From the NCBI GenBank assembly GCA_014377705.1, contig JACMPC010000131.1, forward strand, positions 1 to 64,000: a DNA stretch of 64,000 nucleotides. The letters are read 5' to 3'. Shown one piece after another: positions 2,740-12,470 of the stretch. The stretch comes from Dermatophilaceae bacterium (GTDB lineage Bacteria; Actinomycetota; Actinomycetes; Actinomycetales; Dermatophilaceae). Numbering within the stretch: position 1 is the first letter of the stretch; each line of letters begins with the position of its first letter. The notes beneath the pieces are model-generated. The model was not told the DNA's origin and searched no databases. It worked only from the letters and a program-made list of their open reading frames with translations. A program made the position numbers and the translations under genes.

Positions 2740-2775
2740 TGATTGTACCGCGGTACCAGAACGAGAGGAACAGCC

Positions 2776-4368
2776 ATGACCATCGACCCGAGACAGGCGC
2801 ACCTGTGGATCGTGGGTGGAGGGATCGCCGGTATGGCGACCGCAGCCTTCGCCATCCGGGACGCCGGGGTGCCCGGTGAGAACATCCACATCCTCGAGGA
2901 GCTGGGGCACGTCGGCGGCGCCATGGATGCGGTGGCCTCACCCGCAGTTCGTGGCGCTATGGTGACGCGCGGCGCCCGGATGTTCTGCGACGAGGTGTAC
3001 CAGACCACCTGGGACCTGTTCTCCACGATCCCCTCGCTGCAGGACCCGGAGGTCACCGTCCGGCAGGAGATGCTGGACTGGAACGACAAGTACCAGACCC
3101 ATGGCAACACCCGGCTGGCCGATGGCCGGCACCGCATCCTGGACGCCACCGACTACGGCCTGAACGCGCGCGACCGGCTAGAGATCACGCGCATGCTCGC
3201 GCTCAGCGAGAAGTCCCTCGGGGCACGCCGCATCGAAGACCTCTTCAGCGCGCACTTCCTGCAGACCAGCTTCTGGCACATGTGGCGCACCACGTTCGCG
3301 TTCCAGAAGTGGAACTCCGCAGCCGAGCTTCGCCGCTACTTCCTGCGCTTCATCCAGGAGTTCGACAACCTCGACACGCTGTCCGGGGTCCGGCGGACCA
3401 GGTACAACCAGTACGACTCGATGATCGTGCCGCTGCAGCGATGGCTGGTGGCTGCGGGCGTCGACGTCCGCTTCGGCACGCGCGTCACCGATGTCGACTT
3501 CACGAGCTCCCCCCGGCGGCGGCGCGCCACCTGCCTGCACGTGCAGGACGCGGCCGGCAGCTCGACGATCGACCTCGGCCGCAGCGACCTCGCCTTTCTC
3601 ACCATCGGGTCCATCGTGGCCGACACCACCTACGGCGGCAACGACACCGTGCCGCCGCTGGTCCGGGACCGGGTGGACGGCGGCTGGTCGCTGTGGGAGG
3701 AGCTGGCCAAGAAGGCTCCCGACTTCGGGCGCCCCAACACCTTCTGCGGCAACGTCGACGAGAGCAAGTGGGAGTCGTTCACGCTCACGATGCACAGCGA
3801 CACGCTGCTCAAGCGCTGGGTCGAGTACACCGGCAACGAGCTGGGCACCGGTGCCATGACGACGCTGGTCGACTCGCCCTGGTACCTGTCGGCGGTCGTG
3901 GTGGGCCAGCCGCACTTCGCCGGTCAGCCCGAGGGCACCTACACGATGTGGGGCTGGGGGCTGGAGATCGACAACGAGGGCGACTACGTGCAGAAGAAGA
4001 TGTCGCAGGCGACCGGCACCGAGATCCTCACCGAGCTCATCCACCAGCTCGGCTTCGAGGACATCCTGCAGGAGGTGATCGCCACGACCGACGTCACGAC
4101 CTCGATGATGCCGTACGCGTCCGCGCTGTTCGCCCGGCGCGTTCCGGGGGACCGCCCTGCGGTAATTCCCGACCGCGCGCAGAACTTCGCGTTCCTCGGG
4201 CAGTTCACCGAGCTTCCCGGCGACGTCGTGTTCACAGTGGAGTACTCGATCCACGGGGCCATGCACGCGGTGTACGAGCTCTTCGGCGTCGAACGGGAGA
4301 TCCCGCCGATCTTCCAGGGCCTGCATGACCCGAAGGTCCTGGTAAGGGCACTCCAGGCCGCCTTCTGA
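2776..4368 (+). CDS. ohyA: Oleate hydratase, first copy
   Basis: A 530-residue protein of the FAD-dependent fatty-acid hydratase family (formerly myosin-cross-reactive antigen). It adds water to the cis-9 double bond of oleate to give 10-hydroxystearate. The dinucleotide fold is visible as WIVGGGIAGMATAAFAIRD, with the family blocks GARMFCDEVYQTTWDLFSTIPSL, FWHMWRTTFAFQKWNSAAELRRY, YNQYDSMIVPLQRWL and the C-terminal QFTELPGDVVFTVEYSIHGAMHAVYELFGV. Length is normal for the family. ATG 2776 follows GAGAGGAA and aligns with the start of the second copy. The probable TetR operator is just upstream. Likely roles are unsaturated fatty acid detoxification or supply of hydroxy fatty acids. Confidence 0.95.
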   Translation: MTIDPRQAHLWIVGGGIAGMATAAFAIRDAGVPGENIHILEELGHVGGAMDAVASPAVRGAMVTRGARMFCDEVYQTTWDLFSTIPSLQDPEVTVRQEMLDWNDKYQTHGNTRLADGRHRILDATDYGLNARDRLEITRMLALSEKSLGARRIEDLFSAHFLQTSFWHMWRTTFAFQKWNSAAELRRYFLRFIQEFDNLDTLSGVRRTRYNQYDSMIVPLQRWLVAAGVDVRFGTRVTDVDFTSSPRRRRATCLHVQDAAGSSTIDLGRSDLAFLTIGSIVADTTYGGNDTVPPLVRDRVDGGWSLWEELAKKAPDFGRPNTFCGNVDESKWESFTLTMHSDTLLKRWVEYTGNELGTGAMTTLVDSPWYLSAVVVGQPHFAGQPEGTYTMWGWGLEIDNEGDYVQKKMSQATGTEILTELIHQLGFEDILQEVIATTDVTTSMMPYASALFARRVPGDRPAVIPDRAQNFAFLGQFTELPGDVVFTVEYSIHGAMHAVYELFGVEREIPPIFQGLHDPKVLVRALQAAF

Positions 4369-4423: not shown

Positions 4424-6034
4424 ATGACCATTGACCCGAAGCAGGCACACCTGTGGATCGTGGGTGGAGGCATCGCCGGTATGGCGACCGCCGCCTTCGC
4501 CATCCGCGATGCCGGGGTGCCCGGCGAGAACATCCACATCCTCGAAGAGCTCCAGATCACCGGAGGGTCGATGGACGGGTCAAACTCGCCCCTTGTCCAT
4601 GACACTGGCCACGACGTCCTGGTGACCCGCGGTGGCCGGATGTTTGAGGACGAGGCCTACCAGAGCACCTGGGACCTCTTCTCGACGATCCCGTCGCTGG
4701 AGGACCCGGAGGTGACCGTCCGCCAGGAGATCCTCGACTTCAACTCCGTCATCAAGACCCACGCACACGCGCGCCTGGTCGACGGGCAGCACCAGATCCT
4801 CGACCCCACGCAGTACGGGCTGAACACCCGTGACCGGTTCGAGATGACCCGCGTGCTGGCCCTGAGTGAGGAGATGCTGGGGGCGCGCCGTATTGACGAG
4901 ATGTTCAGCGAGCACTTCCTGACGACCAGCTTCTGGCAGATGTGGCGGACCACCTTCGCGTTCCAGAAGTGGCACTCGGCCGCCGAGCTGCGGCGCTACT
5001 TCCTGCGGTTCGTCCAGGAGTTCGACCGCATCTACTCGCTCTCCGGGATTTGCCGGACGAAGTACAACCAGTACGACTCGATGATCGTGCCGCTGCAGCG
5101 ATGGCTGGTGGACCAGGGCGTCGACGTCCGTTTCGGCACCCGGGTCACCGATGTCGACTTCGCCGGGCCGGGGGAGCCGCGGCGCGCCACCCGCCTGTAT
5201 GTCGAGGACGCCACCGCCGGCGCCTCGACGATCAAGCTCGGCAGGAACGACTTCACCTTCATCACCATCGGGTCCATCACCGCCGACACCACCTACGGGG
5301 GCAACGACACCGTGCCGCTACTGGTCCGGGACCGGGTGGACCACGGCTGGTCGCTGTGGGAGGAGCTGGCGAAGAAGGCTCCGGACTTCGGGCGCCCCAA
5401 CACCTTCTACGGCAACATCGACGAGAACAAGTGGGAGTCGTTCACCCTCACGATGCATGGTGACACGCTGCTCAACCGCATCATCGAGTACACCGGCAAC
5501 GAGCCGGGCACCGGCGCACTGACCACCTGGATCGAGTCGGGCTGGCACCTCTCGATGGTCGTGCCGGCCCAGCCGCACTTCCCCCAGCAGCAGGAGAACA
5601 CCAACACGCTGTGGGGCTACGGCTTCGAGATCGACAACGAGGGCGACTACGTCCAGAAGAAGATGTCGCAGGCGACCGGCCGGGAGATCCTGACCGAGCT
5701 GGTCCACCAGCTCGGCTTCGAGGACATCCTGGACGAGGTGCTCGCCACCACCGATGTCACCACCGTGATGATGCCGTACGCATCGGCTCTGTTCAGCCGT
5801 CGCGTCCCGCAGGACCGTCCGAAGGTCATCCCGGACGGCGCCCAGAACTTCGCCTTCCTCGGCCAGTTCACCGAGCTCCCTGGGGACGTCGTGTTCACCG
5901 TGGAGTACTCGATCCACGGGGCCATGCACGCGGTGTACGAGTTCTTCGGGGTCGAGCGGCTCATCCCGCCGATCTACCAGGGCCTGCGCGATCCGAAGGT
6001 CGCGGTGAAGGCGCTCCTTGCCGCCTACAAGTGA
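4424..6034 (+). CDS. ohyA: Oleate hydratase, second copy
   Basis: A 536-residue close paralogue of the preceding gene, 55 bp downstream and presumably on the same transcript. It has the same FAD fold (WIVGGGIAGMATAAFAIRD) and family blocks, but differs at the glycine-rich loop after the fold (ELQITGGSMDGSNSPLVHD versus ELGHVGGAMDAVASPAV) and carries a few extra residues there. It also differs in scattered core positions. Its own GAGAGGAA ribosome site precedes ATG 4424. The divergence suggests an older duplication and possibly different chain-length or double-bond preference, which is inference. The gene ends 18 bp from a convergent oxidoreductase gene. Confidence 0.95.
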   Translation: MTIDPKQAHLWIVGGGIAGMATAAFAIRDAGVPGENIHILEELQITGGSMDGSNSPLVHDTGHDVLVTRGGRMFEDEAYQSTWDLFSTIPSLEDPEVTVRQEILDFNSVIKTHAHARLVDGQHQILDPTQYGLNTRDRFEMTRVLALSEEMLGARRIDEMFSEHFLTTSFWQMWRTTFAFQKWHSAAELRRYFLRFVQEFDRIYSLSGICRTKYNQYDSMIVPLQRWLVDQGVDVRFGTRVTDVDFAGPGEPRRATRLYVEDATAGASTIKLGRNDFTFITIGSITADTTYGGNDTVPLLVRDRVDHGWSLWEELAKKAPDFGRPNTFYGNIDENKWESFTLTMHGDTLLNRIIEYTGNEPGTGALTTWIESGWHLSMVVPAQPHFPQQQENTNTLWGYGFEIDNEGDYVQKKMSQATGREILTELVHQLGFEDILDEVLATTDVTTVMMPYASALFSRRVPQDRPKVIPDGAQNFAFLGQFTELPGDVVFTVEYSIHGAMHAVYEFFGVERLIPPIYQGLRDPKVAVKALLAAYK

Positions 6035-6052: not shown

Positions 6053-7036
6053 TCAGGGGACGAAGACGACCCTGCCCACGGTGGTCCCGTCGGCGAGCCG
6101 CTGCAACCCGTCCGCGGCCGCCTCAAGGGCGATCCGCTCGCTGACCAGGGGCTTGACCACCCCGTCGGCTGCCAGCTTGGACAGCTCGTCGTGGCAGACC
6201 CGCACCAGCTCAGGGTTCTGGGTGTTGTAGAGGCCCCAGTGCAGGCCCACGATCGAGTAGTTCTTGACCAGGGCGTGGTTCAGCGCGGCCGACTGGATCT
6301 CGCCGCCCGCGAAGCCCACCACCAGGATCCGGCCCTCGAAGGCGACGCACTTTGTCGAGCGCTGGTAGGAGTCCCCGCCGACCGGGTCGTACACCACGTC
6401 GGCACCACGGCCGCCGGTGACCTCCTTGACCACCTCGACGAAGTCCTCGGTATGCCGGTCCACCACGACGTCGGCGCCCAGCCTGCTTGCCACCTCGACC
6501 TTTGCGGGCCCGCCGACCACCCCGATGACACGAGCGCCGGCGGACTTGCCGAGCTGGACCGCGGCGCTGCCGACCCCGCCGGCGGCCGCGTGCACGAGCA
6601 GCGTCTCCCCTGGCTGCAGACGGGCCCGGCGGTGCAGGCCGAACCAGCCGGTCTGGTAGCCGATGTAGAACGCCGCGGCCTGCGCGTCGTCGAGCGCTCC
6701 CGGGGCAGGGAAGGTGGTGGCCGTGTCCATCAGGGCCAGCTCGGCGAAGCCGCCGGCGGGCAGCGCCGAGGCACCGATGACCCGGTCGCCCACAGCGAAC
6801 CCAACGGTTCCCGGCCCGAGGGTGGCGACCTCGCCGCACAGCTCGACGCCGGGGGTGAACGGCAGCGGCGGTCTCACCTGGTAGAGCCCACGACACATCA
6901 GCGCGTCGGGGAAGTTGGCCGCCGCGCCGAGGACGCGGACCTGGAGCTGACCAGCGGCGGGCTGCGGCTCGGCGATCTCCTCCAGGGTCATGACGTCCCG
7001 CGGCTCGCCGAGCCGGGACACCCGCCAGGCTTTCAC
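6053..7036 (-). CDS. NADPH:quinone oxidoreductase-like MDR protein
   Basis: A 327-residue zinc-free medium-chain dehydrogenase/reductase of the quinone oxidoreductase (QOR, NADPH:quinone reductase) type. The N-terminal GroES-like domain contains PPLPFTPGVELCGEVATLG. The Rossmann domain carries LVHAAAGGVGSAAVQLGKSAGARVIGVVGG and the family signature DVVYDPVGGD. The Cys ligands of zinc-dependent alcohol dehydrogenases are missing. It would use NADPH to reduce a quinone or an enoyl/enone substrate. It lies downstream of the acyl-CoA dehydrogenase gene on the same strand with a 150-bp gap, so co-transcription is possible but not evident. A lipid-related substrate is suggested only by context. Confidence 0.88.
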   Translation of the reverse strand: MKAWRVSRLGEPRDVMTLEEIAEPQPAAGQLQVRVLGAAANFPDALMCRGLYQVRPPLPFTPGVELCGEVATLGPGTVGFAVGDRVIGASALPAGGFAELALMDTATTFPAPGALDDAQAAAFYIGYQTGWFGLHRRARLQPGETLLVHAAAGGVGSAAVQLGKSAGARVIGVVGGPAKVEVASRLGADVVVDRHTEDFVEVVKEVTGGRGADVVYDPVGGDSYQRSTKCVAFEGRILVVGFAGGEIQSAALNHALVKNYSIVGLHWGLYNTQNPELVRVCHDELSKLAADGVVKPLVSERIALEAAADGLQRLADGTTVGRVVFVP

Positions 7037-7186
7037 AGGATCACCCCGGTCCGGTGGGAGCGACGGACCGGGGTGAGGCTGACTGCTTCGGACACGGGTG
7101 GTTCCTCTCGGGCCAGGACCTGCACGTCGGTTTCGCGGTGCACGTCAGCTTCGTCAGGCCCGGCAGCTCGCCAGGCCATGCATGCG

Positions 7187-8392
7187 TCAGCCTACAAACG
7201 GACGCTCGCGCCTGAGCTCTTCGCGGGCGATGGATCTGCGATGGACGGCGTCGGGACCGTCGGCGATGCGCAGGCTTCTGGCCCAGACATAGAAGTAGGC
7301 CAGTGGGGTGTCATCGCTGATCCCCATGCCGCCGAAGACCTCGATCGCCCGGTCGATCACCGCGATGGCCATCGCCGGGGCAGCGACCTTGATCGCCGCG
7401 ATCTCGGTGCGAGCTCCCCTAGAGCCGTAGGTGTCGATCAGCCAGGCCGTCTTGTACACCAGCAGCCGGGCCTGGTCGATGTCGATCCGGGACTGGGCGA
7501 TCATCTCCTGCACCGTGCCCTGGTCGGACAGGTGCTTGCCGAAGGCCACCCGCGACTTAGCCCGGTCCACCATCAGGCCCAGGGCGCGTTCGGCCATCCC
7601 GATGGCACGCATCGCATGGTGGATCCGCCCCGGGCCCAGACGAGCCTGGGCGATCATGAACCCGTCCCCCTCGCCGGCCAGCATGTTCGACGCTGGGACC
7701 CGGACGTCGCGGAACACGATCTCGGAGTGTCCGTGCTGGTCCTGGTACCCGAAGACCGGCAGCTGTCGCTCGATGCTCACCCCCGGGGCATCCCGAGGGA
7801 CCAGGATCATCGACTGCTGCCGATGTGTCTGCGCGCCCGGGTCGGTCTTGCCCATGACGATGAACACCTGGCAACGCTGGTCGGCGGCCCCGCTGATCCA
7901 CCACTTGCGGCCGTTGATCACATAGCTGTCGCCATCGGGGACTATCTGGGTGGTGATGTTCGTCGCGTCAGAGGACGCGACGTCCGGCTCGGTCATCGCG
8001 AACGCCGACCGGATCTCCCCCGAGAGCAGGGGATCGAGCCACCGGGCCTTCTGTTGCGGGGTCCCGAACAGGTGCAGCGTCTCCATGTTGCCGGTGTCCG
8101 GCGCCTGGCAGTTGATGGCCTCGGGGGCGATCACCGGCGACCATCCGGAGATCTCCGCGACCGCCGCATACTCAAGGTTCGACAACCCTGAGATCTCGGG
8201 CAGGAACAGGTTCCACAGGTCGCGCTTCCTGGCCGAGGACTTCAGCCGCTCCAGCACCGGAGGATGCGCGTGAGGGTCGTTGTCCGCCCGCCATCGCGCG
8301 TATTCCTGCTCGGCCGGGAACACCTCCTCCAGCATGAATGCCCACATGCGGGCGCACACCTCATCCATCTTCGCGGACGGTGCGAATTCCAT
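7187..8392 (-). CDS. Acyl-CoA dehydrogenase
   Basis: A 401-residue FAD-dependent acyl-CoA dehydrogenase. Family marks are the FAMTEPDVASSDATNI loop, YVINGRKWWISGA, the FAD-contacting LGPGRIHHAMRAIGMAERAL region and the C-terminal EVFGGMGISDDTPLAYFYVWARSLRIADGPDAVHR block. The length and N-terminal part (EVFPAEQEYARWRAD) match the ACAD10/11-like long acyl-CoA dehydrogenases of actinobacteria and phylum-wide fatty acid degraders. ATG 8392 sits 2 bp after the stop of the upstream fusion gene, with AAGG overlapping that gene's end, so the two are probably translationally coupled. It would catalyse the first step of beta-oxidation of an acyl-CoA of unknown chain. Confidence 0.92.
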   Translation of the reverse strand: MEFAPSAKMDEVCARMWAFMLEEVFPAEQEYARWRADNDPHAHPPVLERLKSSARKRDLWNLFLPEISGLSNLEYAAVAEISGWSPVIAPEAINCQAPDTGNMETLHLFGTPQQKARWLDPLLSGEIRSAFAMTEPDVASSDATNITTQIVPDGDSYVINGRKWWISGAADQRCQVFIVMGKTDPGAQTHRQQSMILVPRDAPGVSIERQLPVFGYQDQHGHSEIVFRDVRVPASNMLAGEGDGFMIAQARLGPGRIHHAMRAIGMAERALGLMVDRAKSRVAFGKHLSDQGTVQEMIAQSRIDIDQARLLVYKTAWLIDTYGSRGARTEIAAIKVAAPAMAIAVIDRAIEVFGGMGISDDTPLAYFYVWARSLRIADGPDAVHRRSIAREELRRERPFVG

Positions 8393-8394
8393 TG

Positions 8395-10143
8395 TCAAGC
8401 CTTCCTGTTCGAGTGTCCGGGCCTGCTTCGCCGAACCTTCACCGTGGCCCGGGACGGCGACGGGCGACCGGGGGACAGTGACCCCGCCGCCACGACCGGC
8501 AACGGTGCTCGCATGGTCAGCACCGCCTCCTCGATCTCGCGGGTCCAGACCAGCGGGGTCGCCTCGAGCACTCGCAACATGTCGTCGTTCTGGGCCAGCA
8601 CGAAGGCGACCACCTCTTTGAAGCCGATTCGCTCGGCCAGCTCGAGCATGTGCCGGAGCAGCCGTGTTCCGATGCCGCGGTTCTGGTAGCCGTCCTCGAC
8701 GATGACAGCCAGCTCGGCCACGTGGCTGTCCTCGGGCACATCCGGGAACACGTTGCCCAGCCCGACGATGGCGCCCTCCTCGTTCATGACCACCAGCGTC
8801 GCGCCCCGGTGCCCGCCGGCGAGATGGCGAAGGCTGATGTCGCGCCATTCGCCGACGCCGGTGAGGTATCGCTGGTAGCGGGTCTGTTCGGAGCAACGCT
8901 CGTGCATGGCCGCGACCGCATCGGCGTCCTCCGGGCGGGCCAGCCGGATCCAGACGGTGGCGTCGTTCTTGATCGGTTCGACCCAGCCGAGGGCGTCTGC
9001 GTCGCCAGCCATCCGGGAGAGGGCAGCCGCGAGGCGCAACAGTGCTGAGGCGCGGGTCTTCTCAGCCGGGGCGAACGGCGCCCAGGCTCGATGCAGCACC
9101 ACGTGCCGGTCGGCCGTCCACTGCAGCCTGAGGACATCGGTGGCATCGTCCTCGCCCTCTGTCGCGTTGGTGACCTCGAAACTGTCAGCCTCCACCAGGG
9201 TGGCAGCCGACAGGGGTGCCGACCCGGGATTGGTGACGAGCTCCGTGGCGCCGTCCAGGACCCGGGTCGGCAGGTCGAGACCGTCGTCGGGTGAGCCCTG
9301 CGTCACATGGCCGTTGCTGCCCGCCGCCATGGCCGCGGAGAGGAGGGTGTCGGCACTGACCCTCTTCGGCACCGTCACCGCCAGGTCGATCGTGCGGGTG
9401 CCGTCGCCGGAGGCCAGCACCGAGGTGGCCACGACGTGCGCGTGCAACGTGCTCAACGCCCGGACCAGCAGGGCCAGCCCGCCCGGATGGTCTGGTATGT
9501 CGATGCGCAGCCGCCATGGGGTGCGGGCCCCGTGCTGGTCGGCCAGGAGCAGCTCGGGCGGCGCGAAGGCGGAGCCGATCCGGGCCATCAGCGCGTTCCA
9601 GTGCTCCTGGCTCGGCTGTTGATCCACCACCGGATCGACCATTGCTAGGCCGACGGAGAGGGCGAGGGCGAAGTGGACGAAGGCCGCGTCGTCGATGTCG
9701 GCGTCGAGACCGCCGGCTCGCCGGGTCTGCTCGGTGACTGCCTTGACGTTCGCCCAGCGCTTGTCCAGCCGGGCAGACTCCAGAGCCCGGATCTCGTCGT
9801 CCCGATGGGCCCGGGTGAGGGCCTCGAGCTCAAGGACGTTCCAGCTGCGCCGGGGCGCGGCGAAGATCTCTGCTGCAGCCTCGAGCAGCACCGCGAGCGG
9901 TGGCTCTGCCATCGGGTCGGCCGCCGCGGCGGCAATCCGGTCGGAGGACCGGGAGGTCAGCTTGGCGGCGAGCACCTCTCCGAAGAGCTGTGCGCGGCCC
10001 CCGGACAGCCGGGTTACCGTGTGCGCGGTCACCCCGGCACGCGAGGCCACCATCTGCAGCTTGGTGCCGCTGTAGCCGTTCTCCTCGAACAGGTCCGCCG
10101 CCGCGTCGAGTATTCGTTGCCGGCGGTCGGCGTCGCTGCTCAT
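8395..10143 (-). CDS. TetR-ACT-GNAT three-domain regulator/acetyltransferase
   Basis: A 582-residue protein with an unusual domain order. Residues 1-50 form a TetR HTH (RILDAAADLFEENGYSGTKLQMVASRAGVT) and 51-197 a TetR-like helical domain. Residues about 208-285 resemble an ACT domain (RLRIDIPDHPGGLALLVRALSTLHAHVVATSVL). Residues about 300-390 are a linker region of uncertain fold. Residues 396-545 are a GNAT acetyltransferase with the acetyl-CoA loop QNRGIGTRLLRHMLELAERIG. ACT domains usually bind amino acids, and ACT-GNAT lysine acetyltransferases regulated by amino acids are known in actinobacteria. A fused TetR DNA-binding domain is not something I can match to a described family. The stop-start overlap with the upstream TetR gene and the coupling to the acyl-CoA dehydrogenase gene suggest that protein, or acyl-CoA synthetases, as possible targets. 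Confidence 0.85.
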   Translation of the reverse strand: MSSDADRRQRILDAAADLFEENGYSGTKLQMVASRAGVTAHTVTRLSGGRAQLFGEVLAAKLTSRSSDRIAAAAADPMAEPPLAVLLEAAAEIFAAPRRSWNVLELEALTRAHRDDEIRALESARLDKRWANVKAVTEQTRRAGGLDADIDDAAFVHFALALSVGLAMVDPVVDQQPSQEHWNALMARIGSAFAPPELLLADQHGARTPWRLRIDIPDHPGGLALLVRALSTLHAHVVATSVLASGDGTRTIDLAVTVPKRVSADTLLSAAMAAGSNGHVTQGSPDDGLDLPTRVLDGATELVTNPGSAPLSAATLVEADSFEVTNATEGEDDATDVLRLQWTADRHVVLHRAWAPFAPAEKTRASALLRLAAALSRMAGDADALGWVEPIKNDATVWIRLARPEDADAVAAMHERCSEQTRYQRYLTGVGEWRDISLRHLAGGHRGATLVVMNEEGAIVGLGNVFPDVPEDSHVAELAVIVEDGYQNRGIGTRLLRHMLELAERIGFKEVVAFVLAQNDDMLRVLEATPLVWTREIEEAVLTMRAPLPVVAAGSLSPGRPSPSRATVKVRRSRPGHSNRKA

Positions 10144-10802
10144 CGGGCCTTCCCTGACCGTGGTCGCTCCGTGTGAGCCACGGATGTGGCCTCGGGGTCA
10201 AGCAGTCTGCCGGCAAGCCAGGTGATCTCCGCGGCCGCGGTTGCAGGAGTCGCGGACGGCGCCATGACGTGGCTAAGGACGACGCGGACGATGATGTCGA
10301 TCGCCGTGCTGAGCTGGCGCGGGTCCAGGGGCAGGGCGAACGCCGTGAGGCGGTCGGCCATGACGGCTCTGGCAGCGGTCAGCAGGGACCGTGACCGGGT
10401 GGTGAGCGAGGGAAGCAGCTCGGTGTCCGCGCCGTGTGTGGCGGCCACGATCGCGCGCAGCAGTGCGCTGTCGTTCGTGAGCACGAGCACTCCCCGGACC
10501 GCGACGTGGACCGACTCCAGGAGGTCACCGGGATGCCGGTCGAACGCTCGCTCCACGATGCTGAGGAACCGTCCCAGCTCGTCCAGGACCATGGCTTCGG
10601 CCAGCACGGGCTTGGACCCGATCTCGTTGTACACCGTCTGTCGGCTGACACCGACGATCTGCGCGAGACGCGACATCGTCACTGACGACCATCCCGAATG
10701 CGTTGTCAGGTCAACCGCGGCGCTGACGATCCTGCGCTGAAGCGCGCTGACCCGGTCCGGCTCGATCGCCGCCCTCGCCCTTGCCGCCGTCATGAGCGTC
10801 AT
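10140..10802 (-). CDS. TetR-family regulator
   Basis: A 220-residue TetR protein with an HTH near the N-terminus (RIVSAAVDLTTHSGWSSVTMSRLAQIVGVSRQTVYNEIGSKPVLAEAMV). The remaining helical domain contains DRHPGDLLESVHVAVRGVL and a hydrophobic ligand-binding core. The start at 10802 (or 10793, both ATG) puts the HTH at the usual distance; there is no strong ribosome site. The stop overlaps the start of the TetR-ACT-GNAT gene by 4 bases (ATGA). Its position 107 bp downstream of alkB on the same strand makes it a candidate repressor for the alkB operator, but the adjacent fusion protein is an alternative. Confidence 0.87.
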   Translation of the reverse strand: MTLMTAARARAAIEPDRVSALQRRIVSAAVDLTTHSGWSSVTMSRLAQIVGVSRQTVYNEIGSKPVLAEAMVLDELGRFLSIVERAFDRHPGDLLESVHVAVRGVLVLTNDSALLRAIVAATHGADTELLPSLTTRSRSLLTAARAVMADRLTAFALPLDPRQLSTAIDIIVRVVLSHVMAPSATPATAAAEITWLAGRLLDPEATSVAHTERPRSGKAR

Positions 10803-10909: not shown

Positions 10910-12388
10910 TCACCGCCGTCCCGGCCACCGACCTGCGGTCCCGGGGACGATGAAGTCGGCCTTCTCGCGCACACCGCAGTCCGGGCAGCACCAGGTGTCG
11001 GGCACCGCCGACCACGATGTGCCTGCCGGGAACCCCTCGCGGGGATCACCGGCTTTCTCGTCGTACACGTAGTCGCAGCCAGGGCACCGGGCACCGGTGA
11101 CGTGGGCGCCCCAAACTCCGGCCGGGTGTGGGCCGTTCTCGCCGCCCGCGCGGGCAAGGACGGAGATCAGGCCGGGGGCTTGAGCGCTTGGTGGGACTGC
11201 GGGCGCGGGGTACCTCGTCAGCACATGGGCCCTGCGGGCTGGCTGGATGTTCGCGAGGCTGATGTCCCCGCGGAAGTGGGTGAGCACGCGCTGGTCCATG
11301 ACCCGGCGCCACGCGCGGGGAACGAGCGCCAGCAGGATCATCCCGGCGTACCCGGTGGGCAGGACGGGGGACTCCTCGTAGTCGCGCAGCGCCTGGTAGC
11401 GGCGGGTGGGGTTCGCGTGGTGGTCGCTGTGCCGCTGGAGGTGGTAGAGCAGCACGTTGGTGGCGATGTTGTTGGAGTTCCAGCTGTGGCCGGGGGCGAC
11501 CCGTTCGTAGCGCTCGTGGCCGGGAGCGCCGGTGCGCTGGCGCAGCATCCCGTAGTGCTCCAGGTAGTTGACCGCCTCCAGGAGGGTGAAGGCGATGACC
11601 GCCTGCAGCACGAGATACGGAAGGACCCCGATACCAAGCCACGCGAGCACCACGCCCCACAGGACCACTGACATCAACCAGGCGTTCAGGACGTCGTTGC
11701 CGATGCGGAAGGGGTGCTGGCCGCGGCGGGCGAGGCGGCGCTTCTCCAGGCGCCAGGCACTCCGGCACGAGCCGAGCACGGTGCGCGGCCAGAAGCGGTA
11801 GAAGCTCTCACCGACCCGGCTGCTCGCAGGGTCCTGCGGCGTGGCCACCCGCGAGTGATGGCCGCGGTTGTGCTCGATGTAGAAGTGGCCGTAGAAGCTC
11901 TGGGCCAGGGCGATCTTGGACAGCCATCGTTCATGGCTCTCCTTCTTGTGCCCGAGCTCGTGGGCCGTGTTGATCCCGATGCCACCGATGAAGCCGATGG
12001 TGAGCGTCAATCCCACCTTGTCAACGACGCTCAGGTCGCCGTGGCGCAGGAACCAGAAGGCGGCGGCGAACCCGGCATACTGCACCGGCAGGAAGAGGTA
12101 GGTGATCCAGCGGTAGTACCTGTCGCCCTCCAGGGCCGCGATCAGGTCATCTGGCGGGTTGGAGCGGTCCAGGCCGGTGACCAGGTCGATCGCCGGGACG
12201 AGCCCGAGGATCACGATCGGACCTATCCAGAGCCACACGCCCCAGCCGGTCAGCGCGTGCAGGCCCAGCGCGACGAAGGCAAGAGACGGCATCACCAGGG
12301 CGATCAGCCACAGGTAGCGCTTCCTGTCCTTCCACCGACGCGTCAATCCTGCCAGAGTCGTTCCGGGTGCGTCCATGCGGCTGGGCAT
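10910..12388 (-). CDS. alkB: Alkane 1-monooxygenase fused to rubredoxin
   Basis: A 492-residue integral-membrane non-heme di-iron hydroxylase with its electron donor fused at the C-terminus. Several hydrophobic segments precede the histidine boxes HELGHKKESH (from 143), EHNRGHHSRVATPQDPASSR (from 172) and LQRHSDHHANPTRRYQ (from 317). The alkane hydroxylase signature NYLEHYGMLRQ is at 274. Residues 435-471 are a rubredoxin with Cys pairs CPGC and CPDC. It would oxidise medium or long n-alkanes to 1-alkanols. The fusion form is known from several actinobacteria. ATG 12388 follows AGGAG. A perfect palindrome lies upstream. No separate rubredoxin reductase is seen nearby. Confidence 0.96.
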   Translation of the reverse strand: MPSRMDAPGTTLAGLTRRWKDRKRYLWLIALVMPSLAFVALGLHALTGWGVWLWIGPIVILGLVPAIDLVTGLDRSNPPDDLIAALEGDRYYRWITYLFLPVQYAGFAAAFWFLRHGDLSVVDKVGLTLTIGFIGGIGINTAHELGHKKESHERWLSKIALAQSFYGHFYIEHNRGHHSRVATPQDPASSRVGESFYRFWPRTVLGSCRSAWRLEKRRLARRGQHPFRIGNDVLNAWLMSVVLWGVVLAWLGIGVLPYLVLQAVIAFTLLEAVNYLEHYGMLRQRTGAPGHERYERVAPGHSWNSNNIATNVLLYHLQRHSDHHANPTRRYQALRDYEESPVLPTGYAGMILLALVPRAWRRVMDQRVLTHFRGDISLANIQPARRAHVLTRYPAPAVPPSAQAPGLISVLARAGGENGPHPAGVWGAHVTGARCPGCDYVYDEKAGDPREGFPAGTSWSAVPDTWCCPDCGVREKADFIVPGTAGRWPGRR

Positions 12389-12409
12389 CTGCCGGGCTCC
12401 TGACGTCGG

Positions 12410-12438
12410 GGTTTACAGACCATATAGTCCTGTAAACC
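12410..12438. promoter_or_regulatory. Palindromic operator/promoter of alkB
   Basis: Perfect 9-base arms GGTTTACAG and CTGTAAACC flank the 11-base centre ACCATATAGTC, 22 bp upstream of the alkB start. Read toward alkB, TTTACA resembles a -35 and TATATG in the centre could belong to a -10, so a bound dimer would block RNA polymerase. The size suits a TetR-type regulator; two TetR proteins are encoded just downstream of alkB. Binding is inferred. Confidence 0.65.
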
Positions 12439-12470
12439 TCGACGGCAAGGGGAAAGGCTGTCAGAACCGG

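Follow-up and report, generated by a model that had tools for sequence, protein, structure and literature searches.

A TetR-headed ACT-GNAT fusion protein of actinobacteria, apparently an undescribed variant of a known acetyltransferase class

The fusion gene and the alkB locus

The window, which is the whole 64,000-nucleotide stretch of the Dermatophilaceae contig analysed here, carries on its minus strand a gene run encoding, in order, an AlkB-rubredoxin protein, an AlkX-like TetR regulator, the fusion protein, an acyl-CoA dehydrogenase and a quinone oxidoreductase (Table 1); the fusion gene lies within an alkB-alkX-type operon. Its reading frame is uninterrupted from 10143 to 8395 and encodes an intact product of 582 residues. 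Coupling to both neighbours had been proposed from the sequence alone and is borne out by a 4-nt ATGA overlap with the second TetR gene (10140-10143) and by the ATG of the dehydrogenase gene at 8392, directly after the fusion gene.

Table 1. Coordinates of the fusion gene, its domains and motifs, and the surrounding features of the window.
Feature	Position	Strand	Basis or remark
TetR-ACT-linker-GNAT fusion protein, 582 aa (P0001)	8395..10143	-	single ORF, full-length homologues
TetR HTH region, aa 4-61; YxHF position = VTRLSGGR	9961..10134	-	Pfam, alignment, predicted structure
TetR ligand/dimer-type all-helical region, aa 65-193	9565..9951	-	predicted helices; PDB TetR fold matches
ACT domain, aa 207-282	9298..9525	-	predicted structure, profile and fold searches, PF01842
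DHPGGL, aa 218-223, a DXPGXL motif as in AAPatA ACT domains	9475..9492	-	
Conserved unnamed linker domain, aa 285-378	9010..9291	-	alignment, predicted structure; no credible Pfam match
Pat-type GNAT domain, aa 395-547	8503..8961	-	sequence and fold matches, S. lividans Pat GNAT TM 0.87
Glu477	8713..8715	-	aligned with catalytic Glu235 of Rv0998 (M. tuberculosis Pat)
Acetyl-CoA loop QNRGIG, aa 487-492	8668..8685	-	sequence and family alignment
AlkX-like TetR regulator (TetR_C_35)	10140..10802	-	PDB 5ydp E 1.2e-16; Rv3249c 5d1w E 2.9e-15
AlkB-rubredoxin fusion, alkane hydroxylase type	10910..12388	-	Pfam-type domain search
Inverted repeat, 18-nt arms, 11-nt spacer, operator-like	12401..12447	.	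13-59 nt upstream of alkB
Acyl-CoA dehydrogenase, downstream in same gene run	7187..8392	-	domain search
Zinc-type alcohol dehydrogenase / quinone oxidoreductase family protein	6053..7036	-	domain search

The palindrome at 12410-12438, which the sequence-only reading had put forward for DNA-binding assays, is real, and the sole perfect copy of its core (GGTTTACAG-N11-CTGTAAACC) in the genome stands before alkB. Its natural owner, however, is the adjacent AlkX-like TetR rather than the fusion, because alkB-rubredoxin operons are under direct repression by AlkX proteins (PMC9430723, PMC8784404); the full repeat (12401-12447) is probably an AlkX operator. No obvious palindrome was shared among the upstream regions of fusion genes examined, and the one before alkB alone stands out.

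The adjacency to the acyl-CoA dehydrogenase gene had been suggested to reflect a meaningful link. Such a link is not supported, and a conserved one is rejected, given the neighbourhoods of the other members, none of which resembles the window, and a congener (G003) in which the dehydrogenase and quinone reductase genes are kept with other genes upstream of them. Since G003 lacks alkB, the TetR gene and the fusion gene at that place, the block of three represents either a gain in the organism of the window or a loss in G003. Among the other copies of the window clade, the one in G465 has a long-chain-type acyl-CoA synthetase gene ∼100 bp upstream on the same strand, the copies in G458 neighbour a convergent cyclopropane fatty acid synthase gene and a glycoside hydrolase gene, and the copy in G091 adjoins an SNF2 helicase gene. 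A motif scan of the window found no AMP-forming synthetase, and a local target of this type was rejected on that ground.

Convergent with the alkB-region genes are two tandem, closely similar plus-strand genes (2743-4368 and 4424-6034), the second of which belongs to the MCRA family (oleate hydratase type). A 666-codon open frame on the plus strand (6191-8191), antisense to the quinone reductase and dehydrogenase genes, most likely results from high GC content.

Domain architecture and distribution

From head to tail, the fusion has TetR, ACT and Pat-type GNAT domains, with a conserved unnamed linker domain between the last two. Pfam profiles were matched at both ends (TetR_N, PF00440, aa 11-56, E 1.1e-8, 35.1 bits against a cut-off of 24; GNAT, PF00583, aa 436-526, E 6.1e-12), and an ACT fold is present in the predicted structure. 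The three domains named in the sequence-only reading were thus all recovered, but a separate and highly conserved domain between ACT and GNAT (aa ∼285-378) had been missed.

The ACT assignment is supported by the structure model, profile search and fold search alike. The region matches aspartokinase ACT domains by profile and aspartokinase and SerB by fold, PF01842 is matched at E<=1 by 26 of 33 family members, and a separate model of the ACT and linker regions has a pLDDT of 89.4. The DXPGXL motif, at the first strand/helix of the ACT domain, reads DHPGGL in the window protein and DRPGGL in three relatives; it is eroded in family f51, and for this reason the ACT ligand there may be a different one or may have been lost.

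In most pairs compared, dN is lower for the linker than for any other domain. Naming its fold by Pfam gave no credible match, and the PDB matches cover mainly the ACT domain; its strand-helix pattern looks GAF-like, which is only an impression. The ACT-linker region occurs also in AAPatA-like proteins and in proteins of ∼290 residues with two transmembrane segments. The latter (L045, L056, L057, L059, L061, L064 and L068) contain two hydrophobic stretches, a CxxCG motif, an ACT domain and the same linker, without a GNAT domain, and judged by these sequence features are possibly membrane amino-acid sensors.

The GNAT domain has a Pat-like catalytic core. The acetyl-CoA loop, described earlier as intact, retains Q487-x-x-G490-x-G492, and Glu477 aligns with Glu235 of Rv0998. 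Glu477, Gly490 and Gly492 are invariant in all 34 family members having the site, and residue 487 is Gln in 19 members and His in 15. Among PDB entries, the domain is closest in both sequence and fold to Rv0998 and S. lividans Pat, with a TM of 0.87 to the GNAT domain of the latter (4u5y). The match to the mycobacterial Pat family (NCBIfam NF058543; E 2.7e-15) scores 56.1 bits, far below the curated cut-off of 460 bits, and therefore indicates kinship to Pat only.

Searches with the ACT-linker region recovered ∼35 fusion copies in six actinobacterial families (f1, f16, f39, f46, f51 and f54). In f51 the matches, some few of them truncated, come from 32 of 85 genomes and 9 of 14 genera. It is present in two f54 genomes, in 1 of 13 f16 genomes and in the single f46 genome, and one of three f39 genomes has two copies. 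Among 188 f1 genomes that of the window alone carries it; four further f1 matches were weak and represent the non-fused type. A scan of genome contigs gave matches to the TetR head only. The genome of the window contains a further GNAT domain in a 923-aa frame (L002, G000:C197:9738-10142), which, judged by length, probably belongs to a Pat fused to a CoA-ligase domain.

Independent genomes carry the same architecture at 65-75% identity across the full length, with no frameshift or join. An assembly join of two genes is thereby ruled out, and the fusion is real, given the ∼35 homologues in other genomes. A misbinned contig is also unlikely; several neighbouring segments of the window match congeners at 82-87%. 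In a tree of 20 fused proteins and six AAPatA-like sequences, the fused proteins form a single clade (support 100/100); the AAPatA-like sequences were assigned by architecture and not taken from the accession list of PMC6434083; identity between the two groups is ∼30%. The TetR-fused form could not be named from the sequence alone, and no description of it was found in the open-access literature searched. Given the recurrence of the three-part protein in ∼35 other actinobacterial copies, which in two families lie nearly always beside genes for menaquinone (vitamin K2) synthesis, the protein is real and apparently a form not yet described within an established class of enzymes that place acetyl marks.

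Menaquinone linkage, the TetR head and the predicted function

In families f51 and f54 the fusion gene is flanked by menD and/or menF at 31 of 32 loci (the remaining one is cut off by the contig end), and the wider cluster includes genes of the menA, E, B, C, D, F, G and nuo types. The orientation relative to menF varies (divergent, convergent or same-strand); in the clusters L103, L104 and L105 the gene lies between menD and menF and differs in its orientation to menF. All six MenE proteins examined from fusion-carrying men clusters end in PX4GK, a motif common in this enzyme family. In B. subtilis, the GNAT protein AcuA acetylates MenE at the PX4GK lysine (PMC11619455).

We regard it as reasonably probable that the fusion is a TetR-headed relative of AAPatA, the amino-acid-sensing protein lysine acetyltransferases of actinobacteria, and thus a ligand-controlled protein acetyltransferase with a sensor and dimer head derived from TetR. 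This reading is favoured by the GNAT domain being nearest to Pat, the invariant Glu477, Gly490 and Gly492, the ACT fold with its DXPGXL motif and the single fused clade. We infer that the activity of the GNAT domain would be set by a ligand of the ACT domain (an amino acid or another small metabolite) and possibly by one of the TetR pocket, and that the GNAT domain would acetylate lysines of metabolic enzymes with acetyl-CoA as donor. Acyl-CoA synthetases of the AMP-forming type would be the most likely targets, namely MenE for copies in the menaquinone cluster, and acyl-CoA synthetases of fatty-acid or alkane metabolism in the organism of the window. The men linkage, the PX4GK ends and the AcuA precedent argue for MenE; counted against synthetase targets are the commonness of the motif, the negative motif scan of the window for an AMP-forming synthetase and the absence of a clear PX4GK from the G465 synthetase. 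The TetR part would most likely provide a dimer and a second ligand pocket.

The state of the HTH bears on this last point. The YxHF motif at the end of the recognition helix is a hallmark of TetR proteins. It is replaced by VTRLSGGR in the window protein, and HF is found only in f54 members. TetR_N scores fall from 53 bits in f54, where the HTH has a canonical-looking RHF, to 34-38 bits in the clade of the window and 16-21 bits in f51, in most members of which the HTH is degenerate. Three f51 members (L106, 6330-7913; L139; L136) have lost it by deletion and keep the TetR core, ACT, linker and GNAT domains, which supports the TetR head as a module of the enzyme. In the f51 pairs L104/L107 and L128/L129 the dN of the HTH exceeds that of every other domain, which is not so in other f51 pairs. 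In the window clade, with some dS values saturated, dN/dS is 0.13-0.29 for the HTH and 0.25-0.37 for the GNAT domain; being no higher than that of the GNAT domain, it shows an HTH still under constraint, which counts against the module reading in that the HTH still does something there.

The sequence-only reading, of a sensor, repressor and acetyltransferase in one protein, corresponds to a true trigger enzyme, whose TetR head would repress its own operon or metabolic genes and whose ligand or acetyl-CoA status would switch it between repression and acetylation. The purifying selection on the window-clade HTH, its score above the TetR_N cut-off, the RHF of f54 and the divergent position of the f54 gene, ∼100 bp from menF, are in its favour. 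Yet the HTH is degraded or deleted across f51 with catalysis always kept, the orientation to menF is not conserved, and the AlkX-like TetR with its single matching palindrome already accounts for local control in the window. We consider this model rather unlikely, and repression is the weakest part of the earlier reading; judged from the sequences, members of the window clade and of f54 may still bind DNA, though this is not the conserved function.

It is less probable still that the head is a decayed regulator that only dimerises the enzyme, with neither ligand nor DNA. Repeated loss of the HTH with the helical core kept, including near-invariant P97, W101, E105, R125 and R129, would suit such a structural role, but the HTH remains conserved in the window clade. 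A detoxification-type small-molecule acetyltransferase with its own sensor, suggested by weak NCBIfam matches of the GNAT domain to ArsN1 and phosphinothricin acetyltransferases, is very improbable, as Pat matches better by sequence and fold, the gene is housed in a menaquinone cluster and the ACT-linker-GNAT core is common to AAPatA-like proteins.

Returning to the ligand-controlled protein acetyltransferase, a more specific and tentative proposal is that in f51 and f54 the fusion, whose gene lies between menD and menF, is a dedicated acetylation switch for menaquinone synthesis that answers a metabolite of the chorismate/amino-acid branch by acetylating MenE, that a copy was recruited to alkane oxidation in the organism of the window, and that the TetR head turned from a DNA binder into an allosteric module. 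If true, the allosteric protein acetyltransferases of bacteria would gain a further kind of N-terminal head, a TetR regulator would have become part of an enzyme with its HTH lost in some lines, and in actinobacteria protein acetylation would be connected with both the synthesis of menaquinone and the oxidation of alkanes. Acetylation control of MenE has been reported for Bacillus subtilis, and the conserved place of the fusion gene in men clusters makes this idea directly testable in actinobacteria.

Comparison with known systems

The AlkX TetR repressors of Dietzia and M. tuberculosis (Rv3249c; PMC9430723) are resembled by the neighbour at 10140-10802, downstream of alkB-rubredoxin; the fusion itself is not an AlkX but lies downstream of the AlkX-like gene. 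AcuA (PMC11619455) shares with the f51 and f54 fusions a GNAT domain and a connection to a PX4GK MenE, on which AcuA acts and in whose cluster the fusion gene sits. It differs in that PMC11619455 describes neither a TetR nor an ACT head for it, and the activity of the fusion is a predicted one. The mycobacterial Pat proteins (Rv0998 and MSMEG_5458; cNMP-GNAT) and S. lividans PatA likewise combine a GNAT fold and catalytic Glu with a regulatory domain in the same chain, which is a cAMP domain or an NDP-forming CoA-ligase domain where the fusion has TetR-ACT.

The closest resemblance is to AAPatA/MaKat (PMC6434083), the stand-alone ACT-GNAT acetyltransferases to which a relation had already been proposed. 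Each of the 24 purified AAPatA members acetylates Acs and is responsive to Asn or Cys (PMC6434083). Common to both are an ACT domain with DXPGXL placed N-terminal to a Pat-type GNAT domain with QXXGXG and the catalytic Glu, and the AAPatA-like proteins compared here contain the same unnamed linker, so that the whole ACT-linker-GNAT core is shared. In contrast, TetR is absent from the description in PMC6434083, the AAPatA-like genes compared here encode at the N-terminus either a pair of hydrophobic stretches or nothing extra, and the fused proteins group in a clade of their own. Because it lies outside the AAPatA-like clade and its activity is only predicted, the fusion is not filed as an AAPatA member; it is best supported as a sister variant that would work like AAPatA, with protein acetylation as its predicted activity.
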